In this document: piece by piece, positions 319 through 28,557 of the stretch | How positions within the stretch are numbered: position 1 is the stretch's first letter | Layout of the letters: every line of letters starts with the position of its first letter | NCBI GenBank assembly: GCA_009693115.1 | Contig: SHXW01000022.1 | Location: 1-38,468, forward strand | Direction of reading: 5' to 3' | Source: Dehalococcoidia bacterium | GTDB taxonomy: Bacteria; Chloroflexota; Dehalococcoidia; Lucifugimonadales; Lucifugimonadaceae | Length of the DNA stretch: 38,468 bases | The notes under the pieces: generated by a model | The model's input: the letters and a program-made list of their open reading frames with translations, nothing else | Databases searched by the model: none | What the model was told of the DNA's origin: nothing | Position numbers and translations under genes: made by a program

Positions 319-2202
319 GTGTCCCTATTAGATGAAGTCAAACAGCGCGTAGACATAGTCCAGGTCGTCTCGAAGTACGCAGACCTGGACACCTCTTCGC
401 GCATCCCGAAGGCCCTCTGTCCGTTCCACTCCGAACGCACGCCCTCCTTCGTCGTCTACCCCGAGTCCGGGACCTGGCACTGCTTCGGCTCATGCGCCAC
501 CGGGGGCGACGCCGTCTCCTTCCTGATGAAGAAGGAGAACATCCCGTTCCAGGAGGCGCTCAAGCGTCTGGCAGATGACCTCGGCATACAGGCCAGAGAC
601 GAGCGCGCCGGGCCAGCGCGCAACATTTCAGACCTGTACGAGGCGAACGAGGTCGCCGCCCGCTACTTCAAGGCCCGCCTGCGCGCTCCCGAAGGCGAGG
701 CCGCCCGCAAATACGTGGAAGGCCGCGGTTTTTCGATGGAGGCGGCAGACAGGCGCGGCCTCGGCCTCGCCCCCTCCGGCCTGGAGTCCCTGGGCGGCCA
801 TCTGAAGGCACGCGGCGTGGATGCCCGCGCCGCCGTCGGTGCAGGCCTCATCACACGCGCCCAGGACGGCGCATGGCGGGACATGTTCCGCAACCGCCTG
901 ACGATCGAGATCCGCGATGCGCAGGGCAGGCTGTGCGGCTTCGGAGCACGCAGCCTCGACGGCTCAGAGCCGAAGTACCTGAACACAGCGAAGTCCGACA
1001 CCTTCGACAAGGGCCGCATCCTGTACGGCCTGAACTGGGCCGCAGATACCGTGCGGACGACGGGCGAGGCGGTGGTGGTCGAGGGTTACATGGACGCCCT
1101 CGCAGCCCACGAGCACGGCATCGGGAACGTCATCGCCTGCATGGGCACCGCCATCACTCCGGACCAGCTCGAACTCGTGGCCCGCCTCGTGAGCAACCGC
1201 AACCGGGTGGGCCGCATCATCCTGTGCCTGGATGCAGACTCGGCGGGCCAGGAGTCCACCCTGAGGGAACTGTCCCAGTCCCACACCTTGTTCCAGACCG
1301 GATGGCAGAGCGCCAGCCGGCCTTTCCCGCCGTCAGAAATCAAAGCCGCCTCGATAGAGGGTGGCAAGGACCCTGATGAGGTGATCAGGGCAGACCGGGC
1401 GGCATGGGACAGGGCCATCGCCAACGCGGTGCCGTTCCTCCAGTGGATGATCAATGCCTATTCAGCCCGCTTTGACGTATCAACCCCCCAGGGCAAGGCG
1501 GCGTTGTTCGAGGCTGTGAAAGACCCGATCTACGCCGTCTCCAACACTTATGAACAGGACCGCTACCTGACCTCGCTGGCGAAAAGCATGGGCGTGCCCG
1601 AACAGCGGCTGCGCGCCATGCTCACCCGTCCGGCCGCAGGCCCTGCTGCCACGGCTGGCGAGGGGTCCCGCAGGCAAGCCTCCCCCCGCCGGACGCGCGA
1701 ACGGGAGGGGCGCATCGCACCCTCTCAGGTCGCCGCCGCCCTTGAGTCATCGGGCCAGGACGCCATCGAGGAGTACCTGCTCTCCCTGCTGCTCCGCCAT
1801 GAGGACCTGCGTGACTACGCCCTCGCCGTCCCGGACGAACATTTCCGTGACGCGGCCAACAGGGAGTTGTTCACACAGTGGCGCAGTTCGTCCCTAACGG
1901 CGTTACTGCAGGCGCCCCGCGAAGGCCCGCCGGGCGGTAAGATCGATCAACTGCTGTCCCGGCAACTGCCTCCGGCTGACCACCTCCAGCGCGTGGACGC
2001 CGTGAACCAGTGCGTGCGCCGCCTCCGGGAACGCCACCTCCGCATGATCAAGGGCCTGGAGGTAAAGGCGTTTTCCGAACTGGAACCGCTGTTGCCAGAA
2101 GGGCAGCGTGAAGAGCTTCGTAAACAGTCGCTAGACTCCAATTCCAGGCTCCGCCAGGTCTTCACAGGCCCCGGCCGCACCGGGACCAACAGGTCCGGGT
2201 AG
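319..2202 (+). CDS. dnaG: DNA primase DnaG
   Basis: DnaG makes the RNA primers for lagging-strand DNA synthesis at the replication fork. The 627-residue protein begins with a CHC2 zinc-binding domain (C34, H37, C55, C59). The Toprim catalytic core follows, with VVEGYMD carrying E255 and D259 and LDADSAG carrying D305 and D307. The C-terminal part is variable, as expected for the helicase-binding region. Length fits the family, usually about 580-650 residues. The start is GTG at 319, giving [13 protein letters not shown], the usual DnaG beginning; an ATG at 309 is out of frame. The zinc site is odd: the last two cysteines are spaced CFGSC instead of the usual CFGC. The rpoD start lies 22 bases after the stop, so the two genes are probably one transcript. 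Confidence 0.97.
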
Positions 2203-2224
2203 ACAGGGGGGGACGGACGGGAAG

Positions 2225-3802
2225 ATGGCACGCAAGCTCACCACAGACAAACTGAAGGCGTCACTCTCCTCCGCAGATGACGCCGAACCGCTTGTGGACG
2301 CCGCCCCGGCGGGGGATGACCTTTCGCGCATGGCCATCTCCCGGGAAGGCGGCGCTTCTATGGAGGACGAGGCCAATCTGGACGGGGGCGACACATCATC
2401 AGACGCGCCCTCCCTGGACTCACCCTTCTGGGCCGGGCCTCCGCCAGGCATCGCGGCAGAGGCGGGTAGCTCCGTTGGGCCTGCTGACTCTGAACAGGCA
2501 CTCGAGCAGGATGACATCACCGACGACCCTGTCCGCATGTACCTGCGGGAGATCGGCAAGGTCCACCTGCTGACGGGGCCGGACGAGCGGCTGCTCGCCC
2601 GTTCCATAGAGCTTCAACGCAGGCTTGAGGCTGTCGAAAAGGCGCTCAAGGTCCGCAATGAAGGCCGGCAGCCGACAGACGCCGAGACGGTGTCCGAACT
2701 CGCCACGCAGCTCGGGGCGCAGCAGAAGACGGCGGACTCGGTGGCAAAGTTCCTGGGCGTCAGCGCCCGGGGTGGCGTTACACTCGCCGCCCTGAGCGAG
2801 AACGCAGAGGTGCGCGCCCTCATAGACGGGACGCACAACGAAGGCCTGCTCCTCTACCTCTCGGACGCCTTCAACTGCTCGCAGGAACAGGCCATGCAGA
2901 TGGTTGTGGACCTCTCCATACTCTCCGCGCTCGTCCCGCCGTCCCTGCGCGAGGCCCTGGACGAAGACCCGAGGCTGGAGAGGTTGCCGAAGCTCATTGC
3001 CTCGGAGGGCGCGTCTGAACGCTTCGCGATGTACGAGTTCCTGTTCAGCGCACACTTCACCAACCTGCGCGCCGAATCGGCGCGCTGCGAAAAGCACCTC
3101 GCGGAGGCCAACCTGCGCCTGGTGGTGAGCGTCGCCAAGAAGTACATAGGCCGTGGGATGAACCTGCTGGACCTGATCCAGGAAGGCAATATCGGACTCA
3201 TACGGGCCGTTGAGAAGTTCGACTACCGCAAGGGTTACAAGTTCTCAACCTACGCCACCTGGTGGATACGCCAGTCCATCACCCGCTCAATAGCCGATCA
3301 GGCCCGCACCATACGCATCCCCGTGCACATGGTCGAGACCATCAACAAGCTGTTGCGCGTCTCGCGGCGCCTGGTCCAGGAGCGCGGCAGGGAGCCGACC
3401 ACCGAAGAGATCGCCAAGGAGCTTGAAATAACGCCGGACAAGGTGCGCGAGATACTGAAGCTCTCGCAGGAGCCTGTTTCTCTGAGCACTCCCATCGGAG
3501 AAGAGGAAGACTCCCACCTGGGTGACTTCATAGAGGACAAGAACGCCACCGCACCCCAGGAGGCCGCCACCTACCACCTGCTCCGGGAACAGGTTGAGGA
3601 GGTGCTGGACACGCTCAGCCTGCGCGAACGAAAGGTGCTGCAACTCCGCTTCGGCCTGACGGACGGACGATCCCGCACACTGGAGGAGGTGGGGCAGGAG
3701 TTCGGAGTGACGCGTGAACGCATCCGCCAGATCGAGGCGAAGGCCCTCCGCAAGCTCCGCCACCCCACCCGCTCGAAGAAGCTGCGGGACTTCCTGCATT
3801 AG
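2225..3802 (+). CDS. rpoD: Primary RNA polymerase sigma factor (sigma-70/SigA)
   Basis: This is the housekeeping sigma factor that directs RNA polymerase to -35/-10 promoters. The 525-residue protein has an acidic low-complexity N-terminus of about 95 residues, then region 1.2 ([17 protein letters not shown], from about residue 99). Region 2 starts near residue 291 ([16 protein letters not shown]) and includes the core-binding [12 protein letters not shown] and the -10-reading [14 protein letters not shown]. Region 3 follows, and region 4 runs from about residue 462 with the helix-turn-helix [20 protein letters not shown]. The near-perfect region 2/4 match separates it from alternative sigma factors. 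The start ATG follows a purine-rich ACGGACGGGAAG stretch. Its position directly behind dnaG matches the widespread dnaG-rpoD arrangement. Confidence 0.97.
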
Positions 3803-11140: not shown

Positions 11141-12091
11141 ATGATCATCACGCCGTACAGGTACATCGCCCGCTTCATAGCCTTCTGCGCCAGCAACTTC
11201 AACGAGTTCCTGGACAAGAACGGGCCGTACATGGCCGCGGCCATCGCCTTTTATGCCCTGTTCTCGATCTTTCCGCTCATGCTGGCACTCGTCACCGTGT
11301 TCGGTTTCTTCCTGGGCATAGAAGATTTCAACCAGCGGCTTGTTGAGGCTCTGGAGTCCCAGGTCCCCGTACTCAAAGAGAGCGGCGGCGTCATCCTCGA
11401 AGTCCTGAATAACATCTCCACTCAGCGCGTCGTGAGCAGCGTGCTCGCCGTTCTGGGCCTGCTCTGGATTTCGTCAGGCGTGTTCGGCTCCGTGCGCAAG
11501 AGCGTCAACACCATTTGGGGCATCAAGCGCACGCGGTCTTTTGTCCACGAGCGCCTGATCGACTTCACCCTCTTGTTCGGCGCCACGAGCATCCTCTTCG
11601 CCTCCCTTTATACGACTGTCCTCCTCGGCTTCGTCCAGTCAAACCAGAGCTTCATGGTCCTGGGCGCGCAGGCGTCCGGCCCTCTGGTATCGAGGCTGCT
11701 CGCCACGGTCATCCCGCCCATTCTTTCGTTCGGCGCATTCTTCGTCATCTACTGGTGGCTGCCCAACACGAAGATCCGCCTCCGGGACGCCGCCCCCACG
11801 GCTCTGGCAGGAGCGCTCGCGTTCGAGGCGGCAAAGCAGTCGTTCGTTTACTACCTGCGCGAGATCGGTGGGCCAAACGACATATACGGTGCAATGGGCG
11901 CGGTCATCATCCTGATGGCATGGGTGTACGTTTCGGCGATCATCCTGCTTGGAGGCGCGCAGCTGACGGCCCGGTACACGAGCTGGGTGGCCAGGGCGCA
12001 GCAGCACCGACACAACAGGTTGCTTTCTGCCAACCTTGAGCGTGTCCGGATGAGCCGGTCCCTGCCCGGTATCCACCCGCCTGCGCCTTAG
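11141..12091 (+). CDS. YihY/BrkB-family inner membrane protein
   Basis: The 316-residue integral membrane protein of the YihY (virulence factor BrkB) family has an unclear biochemical role. The family core is visible: AAAIAFYALFSIFPLML in the first membrane helix, a polar stretch, GLLWISSGVFGSVRKSVNTIWG in the second helix region, ILSFGAFFVIYWWLPNTKI and finally YGAMGAVIILMAWVYVSAIILLGGAQL. Six membrane helices are expected. The start is placed at ATG 11141, giving MIITPYRYIARF; the upstream in-frame part is Pro/Ser-rich and unlike the family. No strong ribosome binding site is seen. It follows the methyltransferase gene by 180 bases. Confidence 0.92.
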   Translation: MIITPYRYIARFIAFCASNFNEFLDKNGPYMAAAIAFYALFSIFPLMLALVTVFGFFLGIEDFNQRLVEALESQVPVLKESGGVILEVLNNISTQRVVSSVLAVLGLLWISSGVFGSVRKSVNTIWGIKRTRSFVHERLIDFTLLFGATSILFASLYTTVLLGFVQSNQSFMVLGAQASGPLVSRLLATVIPPILSFGAFFVIYWWLPNTKIRLRDAAPTALAGALAFEAAKQSFVYYLREIGGPNDIYGAMGAVIILMAWVYVSAIILLGGAQLTARYTSWVARAQQHRHNRLLSANLERVRMSRSLPGIHPPAP

Positions 12092-12177
12092 AAAAACTCC
12101 CGCCCCACCCCCATCACCGGGGGAGTTTGTTCAGGGTGAGGGCGCCCTCAAAGAAAGGGCCTGCCAAAGGGCGTGCG

Positions 12178-12804
12178 TCACTGCGGCTCCCGCCGCATTG
12201 CCCACATGTGAGGGCCGCTTGAAGGCAGGTCCCCGTCCCACACGGCCCTGAAACCGAGTTTTTCATAAAACCGCACGTCTTTGTCAGTCATCGTCTCCAG
12301 ATAGCAGGGCAGACGGGCTTCGTCCGCTTCCACCAGCACCGGCCTGAGCAACGAGCTGCCAATGCCCTGGTTCTGTCTGGCCGGTTGGACGAAGAGCAGC
12401 ATCAGGTACCAGTGCGGGCCGGGAGCCAGACGTTTGCGCAGGCCCCCGCTCAGGTTGTCCATGGACGTGGACCGGCGAAGGCCCTCACTGCCCAGTGAGA
12501 GCGGCGCCCACAGCAGGCCCGACCGCACTAGCCGATAGAAGTTGAACTGCCCATTGCCCGGCGAGAGCCAGGCCGCAGCTCCCTCCGGCCCGCCCGCGGT
12601 CGTGTAGACCGCGCCGTAGCGCACCCCATAGGCAAGCGTCTTTTTTAGGTACGCCTCCAGACGCTTTTCCCGTCCGGCAGCGTCAGGCAGCAGCCAGCGG
12701 GACATCGGGTCGTCAAAAAATGCGCGCGCCGCGATCGCGCCAGCCTCATCGAGCTGGTCTTTGGTCAACAGGACGGGAGATGCCGCCGGTGGCGCAACGT
12801 TCAT
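12178..12804 (-). CDS. GNAT-family N-acetyltransferase
   Basis: The 208-residue protein has the GNAT acetyl-CoA fold. The diagnostic part is LLFVQPARQNQGIGSSLLRPVL at about residues 135-155, where QNQGIG matches the acetyl-CoA pyrophosphate-binding Q/R-x-x-G-x-G/A loop. RFYEKLGFRAVWDGDLP near the end is the typical last motif. The N-terminal LDEAGAIAARAFFDDPMSRWLLPD resembles GNAT proteins that act on small amines. The substrate cannot be told from sequence. The gene lies 144 bases upstream of the ileS stop coordinate on the same strand, so ileS is transcribed toward it. Confidence 0.88.
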   Translation of the reverse strand: MNVAPPAASPVLLTKDQLDEAGAIAARAFFDDPMSRWLLPDAAGREKRLEAYLKKTLAYGVRYGAVYTTAGGPEGAAAWLSPGNGQFNFYRLVRSGLLWAPLSLGSEGLRRSTSMDNLSGGLRKRLAPGPHWYLMLLFVQPARQNQGIGSSLLRPVLVEADEARLPCYLETMTDKDVRFYEKLGFRAVWDGDLPSSGPHMWAMRREPQ

Positions 12805-12947
12805 GCCGGGCTGTGCCTCACTAACTGCCTTCGATGGGCCCGGGGCTGTCCGTCCCTGTCCGGATTGATCCCCTTGATGCCCGTCATCCCAGGTTCCGCC
12901 CCTGACCGCAGCCAGGGGGAGGAATGACGCTCGCAGGGCGATCGGCG

Positions 12948-16298
<3,351 letters not shown>

Positions 16299-16325
16299 TT
16301 GCAATCACCCCTGGCCAGCCCCGTG

Positions 16326-16345
16326 CCCCTTCTCCCAACGGGAGA
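16326..16345. repeat. REP-like inverted repeat before ileS
   Basis: CCCCTTCTCCC followed by AAC and GGGAGA repeats the core found at 7760 with one unpaired base. It lies in the untranslated stretch between the T-box terminator and the ileS start. Confidence 0.7.
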
Positions 16346-16453
16346 GGGCGGGGCGTCGGCCTGAACCTGTCGAATCAGTGCGCGCGTAAACGTCATTCTG
16401 GATCCAGCCCTGCCATTGACAAGACTCTCGGCCGCCAGTTTTTTCCGCAAAAC

Positions 16454-16481
16454 AAAAAACCCGCCCCTGGTCAGGGACGGG
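16454..16481 (-). terminator. T-box-controlled intrinsic terminator
   Basis: On the minus strand CCCGTCCCT (16481-16473) pairs with AGGGGCGGG (16468-16460) around a four-base loop, followed by six T (16459-16454). It directly follows the T-box sequence and is the alternative to the antiterminator. Confidence 0.93.
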
Positions 16482-16830
16482 CCTCTTTCGGAAGCCGTGG
16501 TACCACCCTGGTTCCCTTGTCCTTTTGAGTGGAGCGAATAACCCGCCTCAAAACAACAAGGCTCTGTGTGCGGACGACATCCACCCCTCACATGTTGAAA
16601 GGGAAGGCACGCCCGCAGCCGGTCTAACGTCCGGCCAGCCCGGTCCAGCCTATTTCGGCGCTTCGCTCCGCCCTGTGCATCCTGAACCTGTCGAAAGACG
16701 CACAGACTTGCGAAACCCGCCGTTTCAGCCGGACAGCTCGGGAGTGATTTTCACGGCTTCGCCTGCGCCCGCTCGCACCTGGCCGGGCTCTCTCAGACAG
16801 ACGCGCCGCCGTTACTCGTCTCCGTCAAAG
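16454..16830 (-). promoter_or_regulatory. T-box riboswitch leader of ileS (tRNA-Ile)
   Basis: The leader reads uncharged tRNA-Ile and lets ileS be transcribed when isoleucine charging is low. On the minus strand, Stem I begins near 16825 with ACGAGTA (AGTA at 16816-16813), then GAGAGAG of the distal loop. An ATC isoleucine specifier codon lies at 16748-16746 within GAAAATCACTCCCGAG, a typical specifier-loop context. The conserved T-box AGGGTGGTACCACGG lies at 16509-16495, flanked by GGAA and TTCC that can close the antiterminator. A competing terminator follows at 16481-16454. The roughly 235 bases between specifier and T-box are longer than usual and hold a dispersed repeat (16681-16695). 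Confidence 0.95.
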
Positions 16831-16844
16831 CTGTTGACTCTTCG

Positions 16845-16873
16845 AGGTTATTCACAGCAGAGCGCGAAGTCAA
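16845..16873 (-). promoter_or_regulatory. Candidate promoter of the T-box/ileS transcript
   Basis: On the minus strand TTGACT (16873-16868) and TAACCT (16850-16845) are separated by 17 bases. The expected start point then falls about 20 bases before the AGTA motif of Stem I, which is the right distance for a T-box leader. The -10 box matches the consensus only partly. Confidence 0.5.
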
Positions 16874-16912
16874 CCGCAGAGACCTTGCGGGAATTACGGG
16901 AAACGCAGGCCC

Positions 16913-17416
16913 CTACTCGGCTTCGTCGCACCCGTGAGGCGATCCCGGCACAGATGCCGCCACTATCCTGCCCAGAGCGGCTTCGAGCACCGCCACCTCG
17001 TCATCCGTCAGGTGACGTGCGAAGTGTTCGTGGATACCGCGAATGTGAACGGGAGCGGCGTTCTTGAACGCCTCCCGGCCTTCAGGTGTTATGACAGCGA
17101 AGATGCCCCGCCTATCCTCGGAACAAGCCTTGCGTTTCACCAGTCCGGAGGTTTCCATGCGGTCAAAGAGGCGAGTCATGCCGCTGAAACTAAGGAGCAC
17201 AGCCTCGGCAAGGTCCTGCATACGCACCTTGCCGTCCGGCGCCTGCGACAGGTTCAGCAGCACCGAATACCAGCCGACGGGCATCTCCCGTTCTTCTTCC
17301 AACTCCTTGTTCAGCGCAACGGCAACCCCGGCGTGCGCCTTCAGGAAGGATTGCCACACGGCCATGCGGCGTTCATCCACGCGCCTCGGAGCATCCTGTC
17401 CAGTTGTTGGAGACAT
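16913..17416 (-). CDS. MarR-family transcriptional regulator
   Basis: This is a dimeric DNA-binding regulator, usually a repressor released by small phenolic or oxidising compounds. The 167-residue protein has the family's winged helix-turn-helix: PDGKVRMQDLAEAVLLSFSG, the recognition helix SGMTRLFDRMETSGLVKR and the wing SEDRRGIFAVITPEGREAF, where DRR is the conserved wing motif. The start is ATG 17416; the open frame continues upstream but would overlap the divergent reductase gene and is unlike the family. A TAGAAT -10 box ends seven bases before the ATG, so the mRNA may be leaderless. It is divergent from an FMN reductase gene, its likeliest target. Confidence 0.93.
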   Translation of the reverse strand: MSPTTGQDAPRRVDERRMAVWQSFLKAHAGVAVALNKELEEEREMPVGWYSVLLNLSQAPDGKVRMQDLAEAVLLSFSGMTRLFDRMETSGLVKRKACSEDRRGIFAVITPEGREAFKNAAPVHIRGIHEHFARHLTDDEVAVLEAALGRIVAASVPGSPHGCDEAE

Positions 17417-17423
17417 GCGCCCG

Positions 17424-17452
17424 ATTCTAACGCGAATGGCCCGGCCTGTCTG
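17424..17452 (-). promoter_or_regulatory. Promoter of marR-like gene, leaderless geometry
   Basis: On the minus strand CAGACA lies 17 bases before TAGAAT (17429-17424), and the ATG of the MarR gene follows after seven bases. Transcription would start at or next to the start codon, and no ribosome binding site is present. Confidence 0.55.
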
Positions 17453-17569
17453 GAATAGTTCCCCTCGCACCCTCCCCTGCGTACACTTGCCTCCCGGCAG
17501 GCCGCCAGGACTCCCGGCCTGCCCAGCGTCATGCGCCGGATTGGCGAGACTCCATTGAGGTGAACACCC

Positions 17570-18139
17570 GTGAGCAGCCAGATCAACGTCCTCGGTATCG
17601 CCGGCAGCCTGCGAAAAGGCTCTTACAACCGCGCCCTCATGCACGCCGCCTTCGCGGTGAAGCCTCCCGAAATGATCGTGTCCGAGTTCGACCTCGTCCA
17701 TCTGCCGTTCTATAACGGAGACGTCGAGGCCCAGGGCGACCCCGAGCCGGTCCTCCTCTTCAAAGAGGCTATCCGCCGCGCCGATGCACTCCTGATCGTC
17801 ACGCCCGAGTACCACCGTTCGATTCCCGGCGTGCTCAAGAACGCGCTTGACTGGGGCGGGCGAGACCCAAAGGGCAAGGGTGTCGTCACGTCACCCCTCT
17901 CCGGCAAGCCTGTCGGCCTGCTGAGCGCCGGAGGCGCCGCGGGCGCGATCTTGTCGCAGACCCACCTGCGCCAGATACTCGTCGAGACGCGGTCGAACGT
18001 GATGCCCCATCCGCAGGTTTTCGTGGCGATGGCCCGTCAGAAATTCGACGCCGATTTCCAGCTCACGGACGACCCCACGCGCCAGCAATTGACAGACTTC
18101 ATGGCTGCGTTTGCGGTCTGGGCGCACAAGCCGAAGTAG
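17570..18139 (+). CDS. NADPH-dependent FMN reductase
   Basis: The 189-residue flavodoxin-like protein of the NADPH-dependent FMN reductase/quinone reductase family transfers electrons from NAD(P)H via bound FMN. Visible are the FMN phosphate loop IAGSLRKGSYNRALM (about residues 9-23), the flavin-contacting TPEYHRSIPGVLKNALDW (family form PEYN.S.PG.LKN.IDW) and a late SAGGAAGA. The start is GTG at 17570 with GAGGTGA at 17557-17563 six bases upstream. It is divergent from the MarR gene with 153 bases between the starts. MarR/quinone-reductase pairs commonly respond to electrophiles, which is a reasonable inference here. Confidence 0.92.
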   Translation: MSSQINVLGIAGSLRKGSYNRALMHAAFAVKPPEMIVSEFDLVHLPFYNGDVEAQGDPEPVLLFKEAIRRADALLIVTPEYHRSIPGVLKNALDWGGRDPKGKGVVTSPLSGKPVGLLSAGGAAGAILSQTHLRQILVETRSNVMPHPQVFVAMARQKFDADFQLTDDPTRQQLTDFMAAFAVWAHKPK

Positions 18140-18219
18140 CCACCCGGCATCTGTGGGATTCGCACCTACACCGTGTAAATTGGCTGCCTGCAACTTTGCC
18201 CCAGGGACAGGAGAGGGAC

Positions 18220-19176
18220 ATGCCCGTTCACAGAGTCATCGCCGAAACCTATTACAGGACCTTCTCACGGCTTTACCCGGTGCTGGCGCACATCAAGCCG
18301 GGAGACACGGTCGTCACGAAGACGCTCGACTCTGGCGGACAGGACGATAAGGGCGTCCGGCGTCACGTGGCGGGCAACCCGCTCACAGGCCCCTTCTTCA
18401 TCGAGGGCGCAGAGGCAGGCGACGCCATCTCGGTCCACTTCTCGAAGGTCCGCCTCAACAGGAATTGGGGCTACACGTCGCTCAGGCTCGGCCTCGTCGC
18501 GCTCATGCCGGAGTCCATCGAGACCCTCCATTCAAGCAGCTACAAGATGGATCTCGTGCGGCCGGGCAGGGCGGACCTCGTCCCGTGGGACCTGGACGTG
18601 CAGAAGGCCACCGTGCGGCTCAGAGAACCAGCGAGCGCAAAGATGAGGCTGGAGTTCCCGGCAAGGCCCATGCTCGGCTGCGTCGGTGTGGCACCCGCGG
18701 GCGACTTCGCTCCCACCTCAGGGCCGTCCGGCCCGTACGGCGGCAACCTGGACTACAACGAGATCGCTGAAGGCTCGACTCTCCACCTGCCCGTGTACCA
18801 CCCCGGCGCGCTGCTCTATGTGGGCGACGGCCACGCCCTTCAGGGCGACGGCGAACCGCTTGGCAACGGCATCGAGACTTCAATGGACGTGGAGTTCACC
18901 GTGGCTGTGCGAAAAGGCGCAGCGCCATCCGGCCCTCGCGTCGAGACGACGGAGCATCTCATCAGCATCGGCAGCCAGCCCGAGTTTTCCAGCTCGCTCA
19001 ACCGCGGTCTCCAGATGGCGACGACGGACATGGTCAACTGGCTCGCTCAGGACTATGGGATCGAGCCGTGGGCCGCACACCTGCTCGTGGGCGTGCAAGG
19101 CCGGTATGACGTTGTGACCGTGGCCGGTTCGATGGCCCTCAAGATCGCAAAGAGGCACCTGCCGCCGCGGGCGTAA
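18220..19176 (+). CDS. Acetamidase/formamidase family protein
   Basis: The 318-residue protein of the FmdA/AmdA family hydrolyses short-chain amides to acid and ammonia. Family features seen are HIKPGDTVVTKTLDSGGQD near the start, NPLTGPFFIEGAEAGDAISVH, MLGCVGVAPAG, GPYGGNLDYNEIAEGSTLHLPV and GALLYVGDGHALQGDGE, the last two being the usual metal/substrate site segments. Length matches the short form of the family. ATG 18220 was chosen because AGGAG (18209-18213) lies six bases upstream; the open frame extends to a TTG eight codons earlier. It may release ammonia from dissolved organic amides, consistent with the catabolic neighbours. Confidence 0.93.
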   Translation: MPVHRVIAETYYRTFSRLYPVLAHIKPGDTVVTKTLDSGGQDDKGVRRHVAGNPLTGPFFIEGAEAGDAISVHFSKVRLNRNWGYTSLRLGLVALMPESIETLHSSSYKMDLVRPGRADLVPWDLDVQKATVRLREPASAKMRLEFPARPMLGCVGVAPAGDFAPTSGPSGPYGGNLDYNEIAEGSTLHLPVYHPGALLYVGDGHALQGDGEPLGNGIETSMDVEFTVAVRKGAAPSGPRVETTEHLISIGSQPEFSSSLNRGLQMATTDMVNWLAQDYGIEPWAAHLLVGVQGRYDVVTVAGSMALKIAKRHLPPRA

Positions 19177-21347: not shown

Positions 21348-22658
21348 ATGAAAATCACAGGCATCACCGCTCACGAGGTGGGCGTCCCCATGCAGAGCAC
21401 GCTCCTCTGGGCGTACTCGTTTTCCAACCACGGCTACACCGACCACGTAGCCATCGCGACGCCACGCACGATCATCGAGGTCAAGACCGACGAGGGCCTG
21501 ACGGGGCTCGGCGAGGTCTGGGCGTCTAAGGCGCACATGGAAGGCCCCGTCGCCGCCTTCGTGAAGGGCCGCGACCCCTTCGACTGGAAGCGCATCATCG
21601 CCGAGGCGCCGCTCTCGGAAAAGGGCAACACAGGCGACCCGCAAAATCGCGCCGGGCTCGAATTCGCCATGTGGGACCTCATCGGAAAGAGCCTGGGCAG
21701 GCCCGTCGCCGCCCTCATCAACGGCGGCTATTACACACCGACAGTAGAGTTCGCGGCATACATGTTCTTCCGCGCCCCCGGCGTGGTAGAGCAGGGCAGG
21801 TCGAAGGGCGGCGGACCGGGCGAGGTGGACTTGGACAACTACGCCGAACATGTGGCTGGCGTGGTCAAGAAGTACGGTTTCCGTTCGGTCAAGCTCAAGA
21901 TCGGCGTCTATCACCCGAAGGACGAGATCGCCGCCGTGAAGCGGGTGCGGGAAGCTCTCGGCCCCGGCCCGACCCTGCGGATAGACCCCAACTCCGCATG
22001 GGACCTCGAGACGGCCATCTGGGCTGCGGATCAGGTGAAAGAGCTCGGCATCGAGTACCTCGAAGACGTCGCTCGCGGCCTCGACAACCAGGCGCGCCTG
22101 CGGAAGGCGACGAGCCTGCCCGTTTGCGTTGACGGCTCGTACTCCCTCGACCGCCTCTCGCACGCCATCTCAGAGCAGGCGGGCGAGGTGGCCATGTGTG
22201 ACATCTACGGCTCGGGCGGCATCGCCGGAGTGCGCGACTGGATGACCGTGGCGCGCACGTTCGGCCTTAAGACCTCGATGCACTCGGGTCGCTACCTCGG
22301 CGTCTCCCACATGGCGAAGGTTCATGCCGCGGCCGCCTCCGGGCCTTTCGACTTCCCCATAGACGCCCACTATCACCAGCAGTCGGACGACATCCTGAAG
22401 GGCGGCCTGCTCAAGTACGGCCCTGACGGCACGATGAAGGTGCCGGATAAGCCCGGCCTGGGAATCGAGTTGGACTACGACCGCATCGAGAAGTACCGCT
22501 ACACGGACGCCCGCAAGAAGGAGTACGCCGAGTTCCACAGGATGCTCACGTCAAAGTTCGGCGGCTCCGGCAACCCCGGGGGCCCGCGCAGGCTCGGCTA
22601 CGGGGACTACTCGCTCTTTCAGTCAGAGCACATCCAAAAGGGCGGCAAGCATTCGTGA
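21348..22658 (+). CDS. Enolase-superfamily dehydratase-like protein (glucarate dehydratase-like)
   Basis: The 436-residue protein has the mandelate racemase/muconate lactonizing fold: N-terminal capping domain to about residue 130, then the barrel. The catalytic VKLKIG (K182, K184) resembles the KxK base. The metal ligands would be D213 in RIDPNSAWD, E239 in YLEDV and D262 in VDGSYS. H312 in SMHSGRYLG could be the second base. The DPNSAWDLETAIW block and overall spacing resemble glucarate dehydratases more than mandelate racemase, but the third ligand region differs, so the substrate is unassigned. The start ATG 21348 has no strong ribosome binding site; an imperfect REP-like hairpin lies in the leader. 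Probable substrates are sugar acids. Confidence 0.88.
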   Translation: MKITGITAHEVGVPMQSTLLWAYSFSNHGYTDHVAIATPRTIIEVKTDEGLTGLGEVWASKAHMEGPVAAFVKGRDPFDWKRIIAEAPLSEKGNTGDPQNRAGLEFAMWDLIGKSLGRPVAALINGGYYTPTVEFAAYMFFRAPGVVEQGRSKGGGPGEVDLDNYAEHVAGVVKKYGFRSVKLKIGVYHPKDEIAAVKRVREALGPGPTLRIDPNSAWDLETAIWAADQVKELGIEYLEDVARGLDNQARLRKATSLPVCVDGSYSLDRLSHAISEQAGEVAMCDIYGSGGIAGVRDWMTVARTFGLKTSMHSGRYLGVSHMAKVHAAAASGPFDFPIDAHYHQQSDDILKGGLLKYGPDGTMKVPDKPGLGIELDYDRIEKYRYTDARKKEYAEFHRMLTSKFGGSGNPGGPRRLGYGDYSLFQSEHIQKGGKHS

Positions 22659-24139: not shown

Positions 24140-25435
24140 CTATTCCCAGAGGAACTCCCAGCCGGCGACGAGAACCTTGTCCCCCTGCCTGACACCGAGT
24201 TGTTCCAATTCCTGGGACACCTTCATATGGCCAAGGCGAGCATGGTACTGGACACGCGTGGCCCAGTCATTCAAGTTGCTTCCCTTCGCAAGTCGGATGG
24301 CCCAGGGGTGGACGATCCTGAACACCCCCGGCTCCTCGATGACCGCGTTCGGCCTGTCCTTTTTCGGCTCCGGCCGCAGGACGGGCAGGTCCGCTGGCGT
24401 GGCGCCAGCCTGCTCGGCTTGCGCGGTTTGCTGGACAAGCTGCCACATCTGCTCGACGAGGGCGTCCATTCCGTCATGCGTGGCAGCGGAAACGTAGAGG
24501 ACGCTCACGTCCGGCCCCAGCTTGCGGCGGATGCTGGCCGTCAGGGCGCGTCTCCGCTCCTTGACCCCCGGCAGGTCAAGCTTGTTGATCGCTATGATCT
24601 GCCGCTTGGCGGCAAGAGCGGGACTGAACTGTGCCAACTCGTTGTTGATCGTGCCTATATTTGCCAGCGGGTCGTCCGCAGAACCATCCACGACATGGAC
24701 AAGCACGCGTGCGCGCTCGATGTGTTTCAGGAACTCGTGCCCCAGACCCGTCCCTGAATGTGCGCCCTCGATCAGCCCGGGGATGTCGGCGACGGTGAAC
24801 CTCTGGATGCCCTTGCCGCTCTTCGGAAAGACGACGCCCAACACAGGCTCGAGCGTGGTGAATGGATAGTCCGCCACCTTCGGGCGGGCTGCACTGATGG
24901 CCGTGAGGGTGCTTGACTTGCCCGCGTTGGGCAGTCCTGCAAGACCGACGTCCGCCAACACCTTCAGGTTCAGGCGCAGGCGGCGCGTCTCCCCGTCATC
25001 GCCCCCTTCCGCAAGGAGGGGTTCCTGATTGATGGAAGAAGTGAAGCGGGCATTGCCCCAACCGCCCCTGCCTCCCTCGGCTATCAGCAGACGCATCCCG
25101 GGTTCAGAGAGGTCCCCCAACAGGCGTTCGGTCCCGTCATCCGACTTCTCCCATACTTCCGTCCCGGCAGGCAATGCTATGTCTACCGAAGCGCCATTTG
25201 CGCCATGCATGTTTTTCTGTCCGCCGTCCGTGGCTGGTGCCGCTTCAAACACCTGTTTGTATTTGAACGTTTGGAGTGTGTTCAGGTTGGCGTCTGATAC
25301 CAGGTACACGCTCCCTCCATTTCCTCCATCTCCCCCCCAGGGCCCTCCCTTTGTGACGTGGGCCTCCCGACGGAACTTGACCTTTCCGTCTCCACCCTTA
25401 CCGGCGCGTACTTCTATTACGGCTGAATCAAACAT
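24140..25435 (-). CDS. obgE: Obg GTPase
   Basis: This is a ribosome-associated GTPase needed for 50S assembly and stress control. The 431-residue protein has the Gly-rich Obg domain (residues 1-158, including KGGPWGGDGGNGG), the GTPase domain with G1 GLPNAGKSS (167-175), switch DIPGLIEGAHSG (about 217), G4 NKLDLPG and a C-terminal OCT domain ending GDKVLVAGWEFLWE. ATG 25435 starts MFDSAVIEVRAG, the normal beginning. It lacks a clear ribosome binding site. Its upstream gap carries the DnaA boxes of the candidate origin. Confidence 0.97.
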   Translation of the reverse strand: MFDSAVIEVRAGKGGDGKVKFRREAHVTKGGPWGGDGGNGGSVYLVSDANLNTLQTFKYKQVFEAAPATDGGQKNMHGANGASVDIALPAGTEVWEKSDDGTERLLGDLSEPGMRLLIAEGGRGGWGNARFTSSINQEPLLAEGGDDGETRRLRLNLKVLADVGLAGLPNAGKSSTLTAISAARPKVADYPFTTLEPVLGVVFPKSGKGIQRFTVADIPGLIEGAHSGTGLGHEFLKHIERARVLVHVVDGSADDPLANIGTINNELAQFSPALAAKRQIIAINKLDLPGVKERRRALTASIRRKLGPDVSVLYVSAATHDGMDALVEQMWQLVQQTAQAEQAGATPADLPVLRPEPKKDRPNAVIEEPGVFRIVHPWAIRLAKGSNLNDWATRVQYHARLGHMKVSQELEQLGVRQGDKVLVAGWEFLWE

Positions 25436-25439
25436 GGGA

Positions 25440-25858
25440 ACAGTTTCTTAAGTGGATTTGCGTCTCCACGGTAGGTAACAGTAAGCGGTGTGGAGAAGGG
25501 GAAAACATAGTGGTGATGAGATGGAGGTAAATGTGACAGAAGTGGGAGAAAGAGACTAAAGGAGACCTGGACGCGTGGAGGAAGCGGGTATCAATGTGCA
25601 GAGGTTAGGAGGCGGGAGGGAGGATGGTCTGAACTATCCACAATAGCAGCAAGTTATCCACAGGCGGCTTGGCGGTTATCCACAGTGGCTACGAATAGGC
25701 GGTATTGGCCCGCCGAGGCCCACAGCTGACGGGGCGATCCTTCAACCGGATGCTCGGCAAGAGGCCTGCGCCCAGCACCGTTGCCCGGCGGGGGCGAGGA
25801 GTTCTCGTCTGGAGCGCTGGGCGAGTGAGTCTTGCACGCATCGCGCCACGGTAAACAG
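25440..25858. other. Candidate chromosomal replication origin (oriC)
   Basis: The gap between dnaA and obgE holds three same-direction DnaA boxes: CTATCCACA (25634-25642), TTATCCACA (25654-25662) and TTATCCACA (25676-25684), spaced 20 and 22 bases. A reverse near-match TGTGGAGAA lies at 25489-25497. Between them, about 25490-25630 is strongly purine-rich on the plus strand and less GC-rich than the genes, a candidate unwinding region. Adjacency to dnaA is the usual bacterial arrangement. No gene was found in this gap. Confidence 0.75.
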
Positions 25859-27241
25859 TTACTGCGCGCCCAACCTGGCCACGATCGCCTGACGGATGGC
25901 GTTTAGATCCTGCCTGAGCGCCGGGTCAGTTTCGATCTGTTCCTCAAACCGCTTCTGAGCGTAGAGGACGGTCGAGTGATCCTTGCCGCCCAGAAGCTCA
26001 CCGACGCGGGTTGAAGGTAGGCGGCTCTCCTCGCGCAAGAGGTACATGGCGATACGGCGAGCGAGCGCGGTCTTCCTGTCACGCCGGACACCGCGGAGCA
26101 TTTCTTCTGAAGTGCCAGTCTGTTCCGCGACCGCGGCGATGACCGTGGCTGGCGGGGTGGCTCTGGCCGGCGGCTGAGACAGGAGGCTCCGTAACGCCTG
26201 CTGCGCCAGGTCGAGAGTGACAGGCTGCCCGACAAGCTGCGAGTACGCGATGATCCGGTTCAGCGCGCCCTCCAGTTCCCGCACGTTAGTCAGCGGGCGG
26301 CGTGCGAGCAAGTCCAGCACCTGGGCGGGGACGCGTGAGCCCACGTTGTCCGCCTTGCCCTGGAGGATGGCATACCGGGTCTCGAAGTCAGGCGGCTGAA
26401 TGTCCACCACCAGCCCGCCTTCGAGCCGGGAGATGATCCGTTCCTCCAGAAGTGACTTCCTTGCCGGCTCGTCGCCCGTCACCACCACCTGTTTTCCAGC
26501 CATGTGCAATTCATTGAAGGTGTGGAAAAAACCTTCCTGCGTCTGTTCCTTGGTGGCGATGAATTGAATATCGTCGATCAACAGGGCATCAGCGCCGCGA
26601 TAGCGTTCGCGGAACTGTTCGGCGGACCCCTCTCGAATCGCCTTGATGTACTCGTTCGTGAACCGCTCGGACGAGACGTACATCACCCGCAGGCCCTTGG
26701 AGATGAGCCTGTGACCGATGGCCTGCATCAGGTGGGTCTTGCCCAGGCCGACGGCTGAGTAGAGGTAGAGCGGGTTATAGACCTTGCCGGGCTCTTCGGC
26801 CACCTTCATCGCGGCGGCGGCGGCAAGCCGGTTGGAAGGTCCGACGACGAAGGTGTCGAACGTCAGGTTGGGCCTGAACGCTCCTCCGCCCGCAGTCGAG
26901 TAAATGGAAGGGGCGGCCTGCGTACGGACCGGAGATGCGGTGGTGGCATAAGTGGGTGTCCGGGCGGGAGAGCGCTCCTGCGACGTGCCCGAAACCAGGA
27001 ACTCTACGCTGACCTGTCTCTTCGCCACGCGCTCCAGGACGCGCGTCACTGTGGATGCGAGCCGCTTCTCCAGCATCTCCGCGACAAATGCGCTGGGGGT
27101 GGACACGGTGAGAGAATCACCCTCGAGGCTGATGCCCTGTGTGTCCCGCAACCATGTCTGGAACTGAGGCCTGGGGATTTCAAGCTGTAGTTGGCCTAGG
27201 ACAGCTGCCCACAGCTGGCCCGGTGATTCGGTGGAGTGCAC
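25859..27241 (-). CDS. dnaA: Chromosomal replication initiator DnaA
   Basis: DnaA binds the origin and opens it. With the chosen start the protein has 460 residues, the normal size. Domain I runs from LWAAVLGQLQLEIPRPQFQTWL, followed by a Pro/Thr-rich linker (about 86-120). The AAA+ domain has Walker A AVGLGKTHL (163-171) and Walker B LLIDDIQF. Domain IV ends with the DnaA-box reader LLGGKDHSTVLYA. GTG 27241 was chosen because GAGG lies five bases upstream; an ATG at 27418 would add 59 residues unlike DnaA. dnaN is not adjacent; obgE and fmt flank the gene instead. Confidence 0.96.
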   Translation of the reverse strand: MHSTESPGQLWAAVLGQLQLEIPRPQFQTWLRDTQGISLEGDSLTVSTPSAFVAEMLEKRLASTVTRVLERVAKRQVSVEFLVSGTSQERSPARTPTYATTASPVRTQAAPSIYSTAGGGAFRPNLTFDTFVVGPSNRLAAAAAMKVAEEPGKVYNPLYLYSAVGLGKTHLMQAIGHRLISKGLRVMYVSSERFTNEYIKAIREGSAEQFRERYRGADALLIDDIQFIATKEQTQEGFFHTFNELHMAGKQVVVTGDEPARKSLLEERIISRLEGGLVVDIQPPDFETRYAILQGKADNVGSRVPAQVLDLLARRPLTNVRELEGALNRIIAYSQLVGQPVTLDLAQQALRSLLSQPPARATPPATVIAAVAEQTGTSEEMLRGVRRDRKTALARRIAMYLLREESRLPSTRVGELLGGKDHSTVLYAQKRFEEQIETDPALRQDLNAIRQAIVARLGAQ

Positions 27242-27630: not shown

Positions 27631-28557
27631 ATGAGGACCGTGTTTTTTGGCTCTCCGGTAGAGGCTATGCCTGCACTCAGTGCGGTGCTGGCGAGCGGCC
27701 ATGAAGTCGCCGCCGTATATACCCAGCCTGACAGGCCGGCGGGACGATCAGTGGCGCCCGTGCCGACACCTGTCAAAGTTGGCGCAGAGCAAGCCGGCAT
27801 ACCCGTGCGCACCCCGAAAACGTTGCGCGACCCCGCCACCCAGGCTGAACTGAAGGCCTACGGTGCAGACGCGTTCGTGGTTGTCGCATACGGCAGGTTG
27901 CTGCCGCCAGAGGTTCTCTCCATACCCCGCCTGGGCGTGTTGAACGTCCACCCATCTCTTCTACCGGAATACCGTGGCCCCAGCCCGGTGCAGCAGGCAA
28001 TACTGGACGGCGCGCCAGAGACGGGCGTGACGGTGATGCTTCTGGACGAGGGCATGGACACGGGGCCTGTCCTGTCGCAGCGCAGCGTGCGCCTCCAGGG
28101 AGATGAAACGGCGCCTGCGCTGATGGCCCGGCTCTTCGAGGAGGGAGCGCAACTGCTCGTGGAAACTCTAGATCGGCACTCGCGCGGCAATATCAAGCCG
28201 CAACCGCAGGAGGGCGCCAGTGCCACGGTGACGAAGCTCCTCAGCCGGGAGGACGGCGAGATCGACTGGTCCATGTCGGCAGCACATATCGCCCGCATGG
28301 TCCGGGCTTATGGCCCATGGCCGGGTACGCACACGCGCTGGCGAGGGCAAGTCCTGAAGGTATTGGAGGTTCGGGCGGTTGCCGAACATGCGGGGGAGCC
28401 GGGCGCGGTCTCTGTGCGAGGCGGCGGCCTCTACGTCGCCACGGGCGAGGGGGCGCTTCGGGTCCTGTCGCTCCAACTAGAAGGCAGGAAGGCAGCGACG
28501 GGGGAGGAGTTCGCGCGCGGCCACCCGCAGGCTGCCGGTAGCCGGGTGCCGTCCTGA
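27631..28557 (+). CDS. fmt: Methionyl-tRNA formyltransferase
   Basis: This enzyme adds a formyl group from 10-formyl-THF to initiator Met-tRNA. The 308-residue protein has RTVFFGSPVEAMPAL at the start, the catalytic triad in GVLNVHPSLLPEYRGPSPVQ (N105, H107) and LLDEGMDTGP (D143), and a C-terminal OB-like tRNA-binding domain from about residue 205 that includes IARMVRAYGPWPGTHTRW. Length is normal. The start ATG 27631 lacks a strong ribosome binding site. It is divergent from dnaA and converges on ffh; peptide deformylase, its frequent partner, is not present. Confidence 0.95.
   Translation: MRTVFFGSPVEAMPALSAVLASGHEVAAVYTQPDRPAGRSVAPVPTPVKVGAEQAGIPVRTPKTLRDPATQAELKAYGADAFVVVAYGRLLPPEVLSIPRLGVLNVHPSLLPEYRGPSPVQQAILDGAPETGVTVMLLDEGMDTGPVLSQRSVRLQGDETAPALMARLFEEGAQLLVETLDRHSRGNIKPQPQEGASATVTKLLSREDGEIDWSMSAAHIARMVRAYGPWPGTHTRWRGQVLKVLEVRAVAEHAGEPGAVSVRGGGLYVATGEGALRVLSLQLEGRKAATGEEFARGHPQAAGSRVPS

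Follow-up and report, generated by a model that had tools for sequence, protein, structure and literature searches.

The dnaA–obgE spacer and its surroundings

The window analysed is the whole of contig C18 (38,468 bp), one of the 40 contigs of a 2.02 Mb draft assembly that may lack about 4% of the genome. The closest relatives of its DnaA protein are found in records titled SAR202 cluster, Dehalococcoidia or Chloroflexi. The profile matches to dnaA and obgE both exceed the curated cut-offs (Table 1), the dnaA start being that used in the searches, with an in-frame GTG further upstream. Since both genes are on the minus strand, the DnaA boxes in the spacer between them are located downstream of dnaA and upstream of obgE. 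The dnaN gene sits on a different contig, C28. Scans of the window for parS-like sites (up to 3 mismatches), tRNA genes and Rfam families returned nothing, and a promoter and terminator consensus scan of positions 25300-25960 gave no match. At the left end of the window, approximately 22 kb from the proposed origin, genes for primase (dnaG) and a sigma-70 factor lie head to tail at 319-3802.

Table 1. Features of the dnaA–obgE locus, in window coordinates
Feature	Position	Strand	Remarks
obgE, GTPase	24140-25435	-	NF008955, 450 bits, E 9.3e-135
dnaA–obgE intergenic region, proposed oriC	25436-25858	.	423 bp; cumulative GC-skew minimum of window at 25420
TTACTGTTA, trio-like repeat	25476-25484	-	49 bp from obgE start; putative unwinding start
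CCGC, spacer	25485-25488	-	4 bp, between TTCTCCACA and TTACTGTTA
Opposed DnaA box, TTCTCCACA	25489-25497	-	1 mismatch; points to obgE; second composite site
Degenerate first composite site, GTTTTCCCC	25498-25506	-	Abuts opposed box; position conserved in relatives; predicted binding
Purine-rich tract	25490-25630	+	75.9% purine; contains lowest-GC 40-mer of spacer
DnaA box 1, CTATCCACA	25634-25642	+	1 mismatch
DnaA box 2, TTATCCACA	25654-25662	+	Perfect; 20 bp after box 1
DnaA box 3, TTATCCACA	25676-25684	+	Perfect; 22 bp after box 2
dnaA, replication initiator	25859-27241	-	TIGR00362, 461 bits, E 4.8e-138
fmt	27631-28557	+	TIGR00460; synteny; divergent from dnaA, in conserved neighbourhood

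DnaA boxes and an opposed composite element

The sequence-only reading of this locus had described three near-perfect DnaA boxes in one orientation beside a purine-rich tract at about 25490-25630, and both features were confirmed. The boxes span exactly 25634-25684, with start-to-start distances of 20 and 22 bp, and the tract is the most purine-biased 141 bases of the window; only 18 of 38,328 stretches of that length are equally or more biased, all of them overlapping it. The lowest-GC 40-mer of the spacer (GC 0.375, 25502-25541) falls within the lowest 0.3% of the window, there being no pronounced AT-rich block, and the DNA to the right of box 3 soon climbs to 60-76% GC. The box triple is not a product of chance: when the 423-bp spacer was dinucleotide-shuffled 2000 times, no shuffle contained three same-strand boxes (at most 1 mismatch) with starts within 50 bp. 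A search of the entire 2.02 Mb assembly for TATCCACA-N5..35-TATCCACA retrieved just the two overlapping pairs of the array (reversed control, 0), and 11 of the 13 perfect boxes in the assembly lie outside it; the array is the sole tandem box cluster in the draft. Across 58 genomes of the family, tight tandem pairs were present in 7 (reversed control, 1 of 58), and in 5 of these 7 they lie 110-178 bp downstream of dnaA. The spacers of 36 named loci hold 18 box clusters in 18.3 kb, versus 7 in 625 kb elsewhere.

Next, the spacers downstream of dnaA in the relatives' loci and the window were compared. Ninety-seven were long enough, 81 were left after removal of identical starts, and the 49 with obgE next door were kept, the remaining 32 being excluded. 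Of these 49 spacers, many of which come from related species and hence are not independent, 22 contain a same-strand pair with 20-22 bp spacing, versus 0.02 expected from shuffles and 0 of 48 fmt–dnaA control spacers; such a pair at up to 1 mismatch is absent from the other 27. When successive same-strand gaps of up to 60 bp were tallied, 27 of 34 were 20-22 bp, and given this conservation the spacing of two helical turns seems to have been kept by selection. Eighteen loci that lack such a pair (for example L063, L069, L070 and L071) were scanned throughout their length and mostly contained no box cluster; L081 has a two-box cluster near its far obgE, and the usual array is present in L092, where the spacer extends into dnaA as the dnaA match is partial. 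In L057, dnaA and obgE are separated by approximately 6.4 kb (11326-17749), with no box cluster in the locus. In the SAR202 locus L082, obgE-nadD-pyrE is inverted and apart from dnaA, and three boxes 10-11 bp apart lie upstream of obgE (18194-18223), an arrangement from which the origin may be supposed to move along with obgE; the related locus L091 has no such cluster.

An opposed box that the sequence-only reading did not mention lies on the minus strand, about 140 bp from the triple array, as part of a composite element. Read along the minus strand from 25506 to 25476, the composite consists of GTTTTCCCC / TTCTCCACA / CCGC / TTACTGTTA, and by-eye comparison of the spacers gives a general layout of two abutting DnaA-box-like sites, 3-4 bp and TTAYTR. 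The composite was scored on the obgE-sense strand in 35 of the 49 spacers, against 0.6 expected from shuffles, a count that is somewhat inflated because the score was devised after part of the data had been seen; it was scored in none of the 49 on the opposite strand and in none of the fmt–dnaA controls. Most spacers that carry it place it 46-58 bp from the obgE start, despite their varying length. Since it is found also in lineages without a clear array (for example L046, L047 and L056), the composite is the more general part of the site and, as judged by comparison of the spacers, is more widely conserved than the triple box. The triple box that had been singled out at the outset is thus part of the site, but only one half of it.

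In 7 of the 58 family genomes, a scan for TCCACN{3,4}TTATTA matched on the correct strand, 235-327 bp downstream of dnaA; 6 of the 7 belong to genus g9 (7 genomes), where it is nearly the sole match per genome. Chance matches are many in AT-rich genomes, in which the reversed control is equally frequent, and therefore only these 7 matches are informative. The genome studied here has no match because it carries TTACTGTTA.

The composite was also compared with the basal unwinding system (BUS) of Bacillus subtilis, which comprises tandem DnaA boxes, a GC-rich spacer and DnaA-trios (PMC8287927). The published layout, with the box first, then a short spacer and then the triplets, has the order and orientation of the composite. 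The BUS rules ask for one box with at most 2 mismatches, or two boxes no more than 3 bp apart with at most 2 and 4 mismatches, and for three or more NAN triplets in a row, no further than 16 bp from the box (PMC8287927). With its 1 mismatch, TTCTCCACA suffices on its own; for the abutting GTTTTCCCC, 5 mismatches were counted by eye, or 3 if it is read with an overlap of one base (4 in the composite score), and better box pairs exist in relatives such as L086. Three successive NAN triplets are lacking at the composite of the window because the triplets read TAC-TGT-TAC, and no match was found on the minus strand. Several relatives do carry such triplets at the composite, for example TAT-TAA-GAT-GAT in L067, and a TGN second triplet is common to many relatives. 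Like the BUS, the element has a pair of directly adjoining box-like sites followed, 3-4 bp further along the same strand, by a triplet-like repeat, in the same order and orientation; it differs in that TTACTGTTA violates the middle-A rule at its second triplet. Overall, it resembles the box-spacer-trio unwinding module of other bacteria, with an imperfect trio.

Gene order and strand skew

The order fmt<-dnaA->obgE->nadD->pyrE recurs among the relatives' loci, and obgE lies within 1.2 kb after dnaA in 36 of 49 (L044-L092). A class-wide sample comprised 40 genomes, the one studied here among them, and 35 yielded both genes. In 24 of the 40, obgE lies on the dnaA strand no more than 1.5 kb after dnaA, and in two more it comes 3-5 kb after it. 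In the phylum sample, besides G000, G095 and G122, the arrangement was seen in G138 only, among 37 genomes with both genes that include two further class members lacking it. In G095 and G122, single-contig genomes of 1.4-1.5 Mb from one family of the class, obgE lies 361 bp after dnaA. G099 gave no DnaA match and those of G059 (E 1.6e-4) and G134 (E 9.2e-4) were marginal, at completeness values of 88-96%. These counts indicate that the dnaA–obgE context is a trait of the class as such, not a peculiarity of one genome; the initial observation that dnaA adjoins obgE and not dnaN holds, but the context is unusual only in comparison with textbook bacteria.

Across the window, cumulative GC skew declines as far as 25420, its minimum, and rises thereafter. 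Since gene orientation also creates skew, fourfold-degenerate sites were measured separately for each arm and gene strand. Plus-strand skew on the left arm was -0.144 for plus-strand and -0.048 for minus-strand genes, and on the right arm +0.046 and +0.179, respectively, an arm effect of approximately 0.2 that is seen on both gene strands, and hence gene orientation does not account for the switch. The last clearly negative gene ends at 22658, and pyrE, nadD, obgE and dnaA are positive, which locates the switch to within about 3 kb of the boxes. The largest single split contrast in the window, 0.0787, falls at 20.5 kb, and 25.5 kb comes close (0.0767); negative-to-positive splits of similar size occur in other sampled stretches of the genome, on C19 (+0.074) and near dnaN on C28 (+0.081). 

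Six relatives were sampled for genome-wide skew. G011, a complete chromosome from the same family, is a single 3.09 Mb contig that starts at dnaA (base 190); all 10 of its 20-kb samples up to 1.37 Mb were positive, and all 10 between 1.50 and 3.02 Mb were negative. This is a textbook replichore pair starting at dnaA. Skew was patchy in four near-closed genomes, with a local negative-to-positive switch at dnaA in G029 and G046 and none in G001 and G039. In near-closed G041, dnaA is near a positive-to-negative change, a skew maximum, and its position fits a terminus better. In the four patchy genomes, which are larger and in one or two contigs, GC skew changes sign many times and is accompanied in most stretches by an AT skew of opposite sign, a pattern that points to numerous inversions or to misassembly. 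Among 30 named loci, in some of which obgE is relocated, skew on the obgE side exceeds that on the dnaA side in 25, with a sign change in 13. As far as a draft in 40 contigs permits, the skew check originally suggested for this locus is borne out by the contig minimum and by the replichores of G011, but G041 is contrary and the other relatives are patchy.

A probable chromosomal origin and its possible opening

Taken at a probability of roughly 0.87, the 423-bp dnaA–obgE spacer is the chromosomal oriC, as had been proposed from the first inspection of the sequence, and support is provided by the skew minimum of the contig, the skew of G011 and the box clusters in the relatives' spacers. A box cluster above chance, a GC-skew minimum within the contig and an adjacent indicator gene, dnaA, were all found; the indicator genes of Ori-Finder are dnaA, dnaN, hemE and gidA (PMC2275245). 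Comparison thus gives good support for what would be an ordinary kind of bacterial origin. It is like the dnaA-adjacent oriC of many bacteria (Ori-Finder/DoriC type) in having boxes of the TTATCCACA consensus clustered beside dnaA at a GC-skew minimum, but differs in that the downstream gene is obgE and not dnaN, and in that the 20-22 bp spacing is conserved across this lineage. Dehalococcoides belongs to the same class, and its genomes have origins predicted from skew (PMC2764846); the Dehalococcoides box given in the Ori-Finder account is TTATCGAAA (PMC2275245), whereas the standard TTATCCACA is used here. Listings of the open literature on SAR202, Dehalococcoidia and Chloroflexi origins contained no description of this layout or of the obgE-proximal element.

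More tentatively, and with the odds somewhat against it, SAR202 and related Dehalococcoidia may share a two-armed origin, in which the 20-22 bp array faces dnaA and a variant unwinding module lies on the opposite strand approximately 50 bp before obgE. The module would consist of two abutting DnaA sites, a 3-4 bp spacer and TTAYTR, with G allowed in the middle of the second triplet. As part of the main reading, in which the spacer is oriC, DnaA would load both on the array, which would serve as an anchor, and on the obgE-proximal opposed tandem site; from the latter, a DnaA-ATP oligomer would extend over the TTACTGTTA repeat toward obgE. The duplex would then open around 25436-25484, or perhaps in the purine-rich, lowest-GC tract between the two arms (25500-25545), followed by helicase loading and the departure of two forks. 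Opening at the opposed site is proposed on the strength of the BUS-like layout, the relatives with regular trios and the suspicion, voiced in PMC8287927 itself, that deviant trios exist. If the oligomer instead followed the direction in which the array points, it would grow rightward, into DNA that soon becomes GC-rich and is harder to open.

In an unlikely alternative, the spacer is likewise oriC, with the duplex opening beside box 3 or box 1, on the flank of the array that faces dnaA, and not at the composite. The published permissive trio rule does pick out CTATCCACA a / TAG-CAG-CAA beside box 1 and TTATCCACA gtggc / TAC-GAA-TAG beside box 3. However, these matches are unconvincing, as 25 of 300 mononucleotide shuffles also produce a match somewhere and the relatives do not have these triplets in common, the more so as in some of them the array-side triplets differ from those of the window and from each other; moreover, GC content soon reaches 60-76% to the right of box 3, and it is the composite that is conserved instead.

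It is improbable that the spacer is a DnaA-controlled regulatory region and not an origin, with the boxes tuning obgE (perhaps dnaA also) and the composite acting as the obgE promoter. Promoter control by DnaA boxes occurs in known bacteria, the near-constant distance of the composite from obgE (mostly 46-58 bp, while spacer length varies) would suit such a role, and TTAYTR could hold a -10-like hexamer, but no sigma-70-like promoter was found at 25300-25960, the skew switches at the spacer, the replichores of G011 start at dnaA, and promoter and origin roles can coexist. Very improbable is a true origin elsewhere, for example near dnaN on C28, with the array as a DnaA-titrating site: the +0.081 change on C28 and the G041 skew maximum near dnaA speak for it, but the G011 skew and the lack of a second tandem box cluster in the assembly, which may be some 4% short of the full genome, speak against it.

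SAR202 bacteria are abundant and mostly uncultured. With the dnaA–obgE spacer as a known chromosome start, metagenome coverage ratios could be read as growth rates and draft genomes could be oriented. If the two-armed reading is true, the fixed distance to obgE would couple origin opening to transcription of this GTPase gene. The conserved element also offers a testable case of how much variation the trio-based unwinding code allows.
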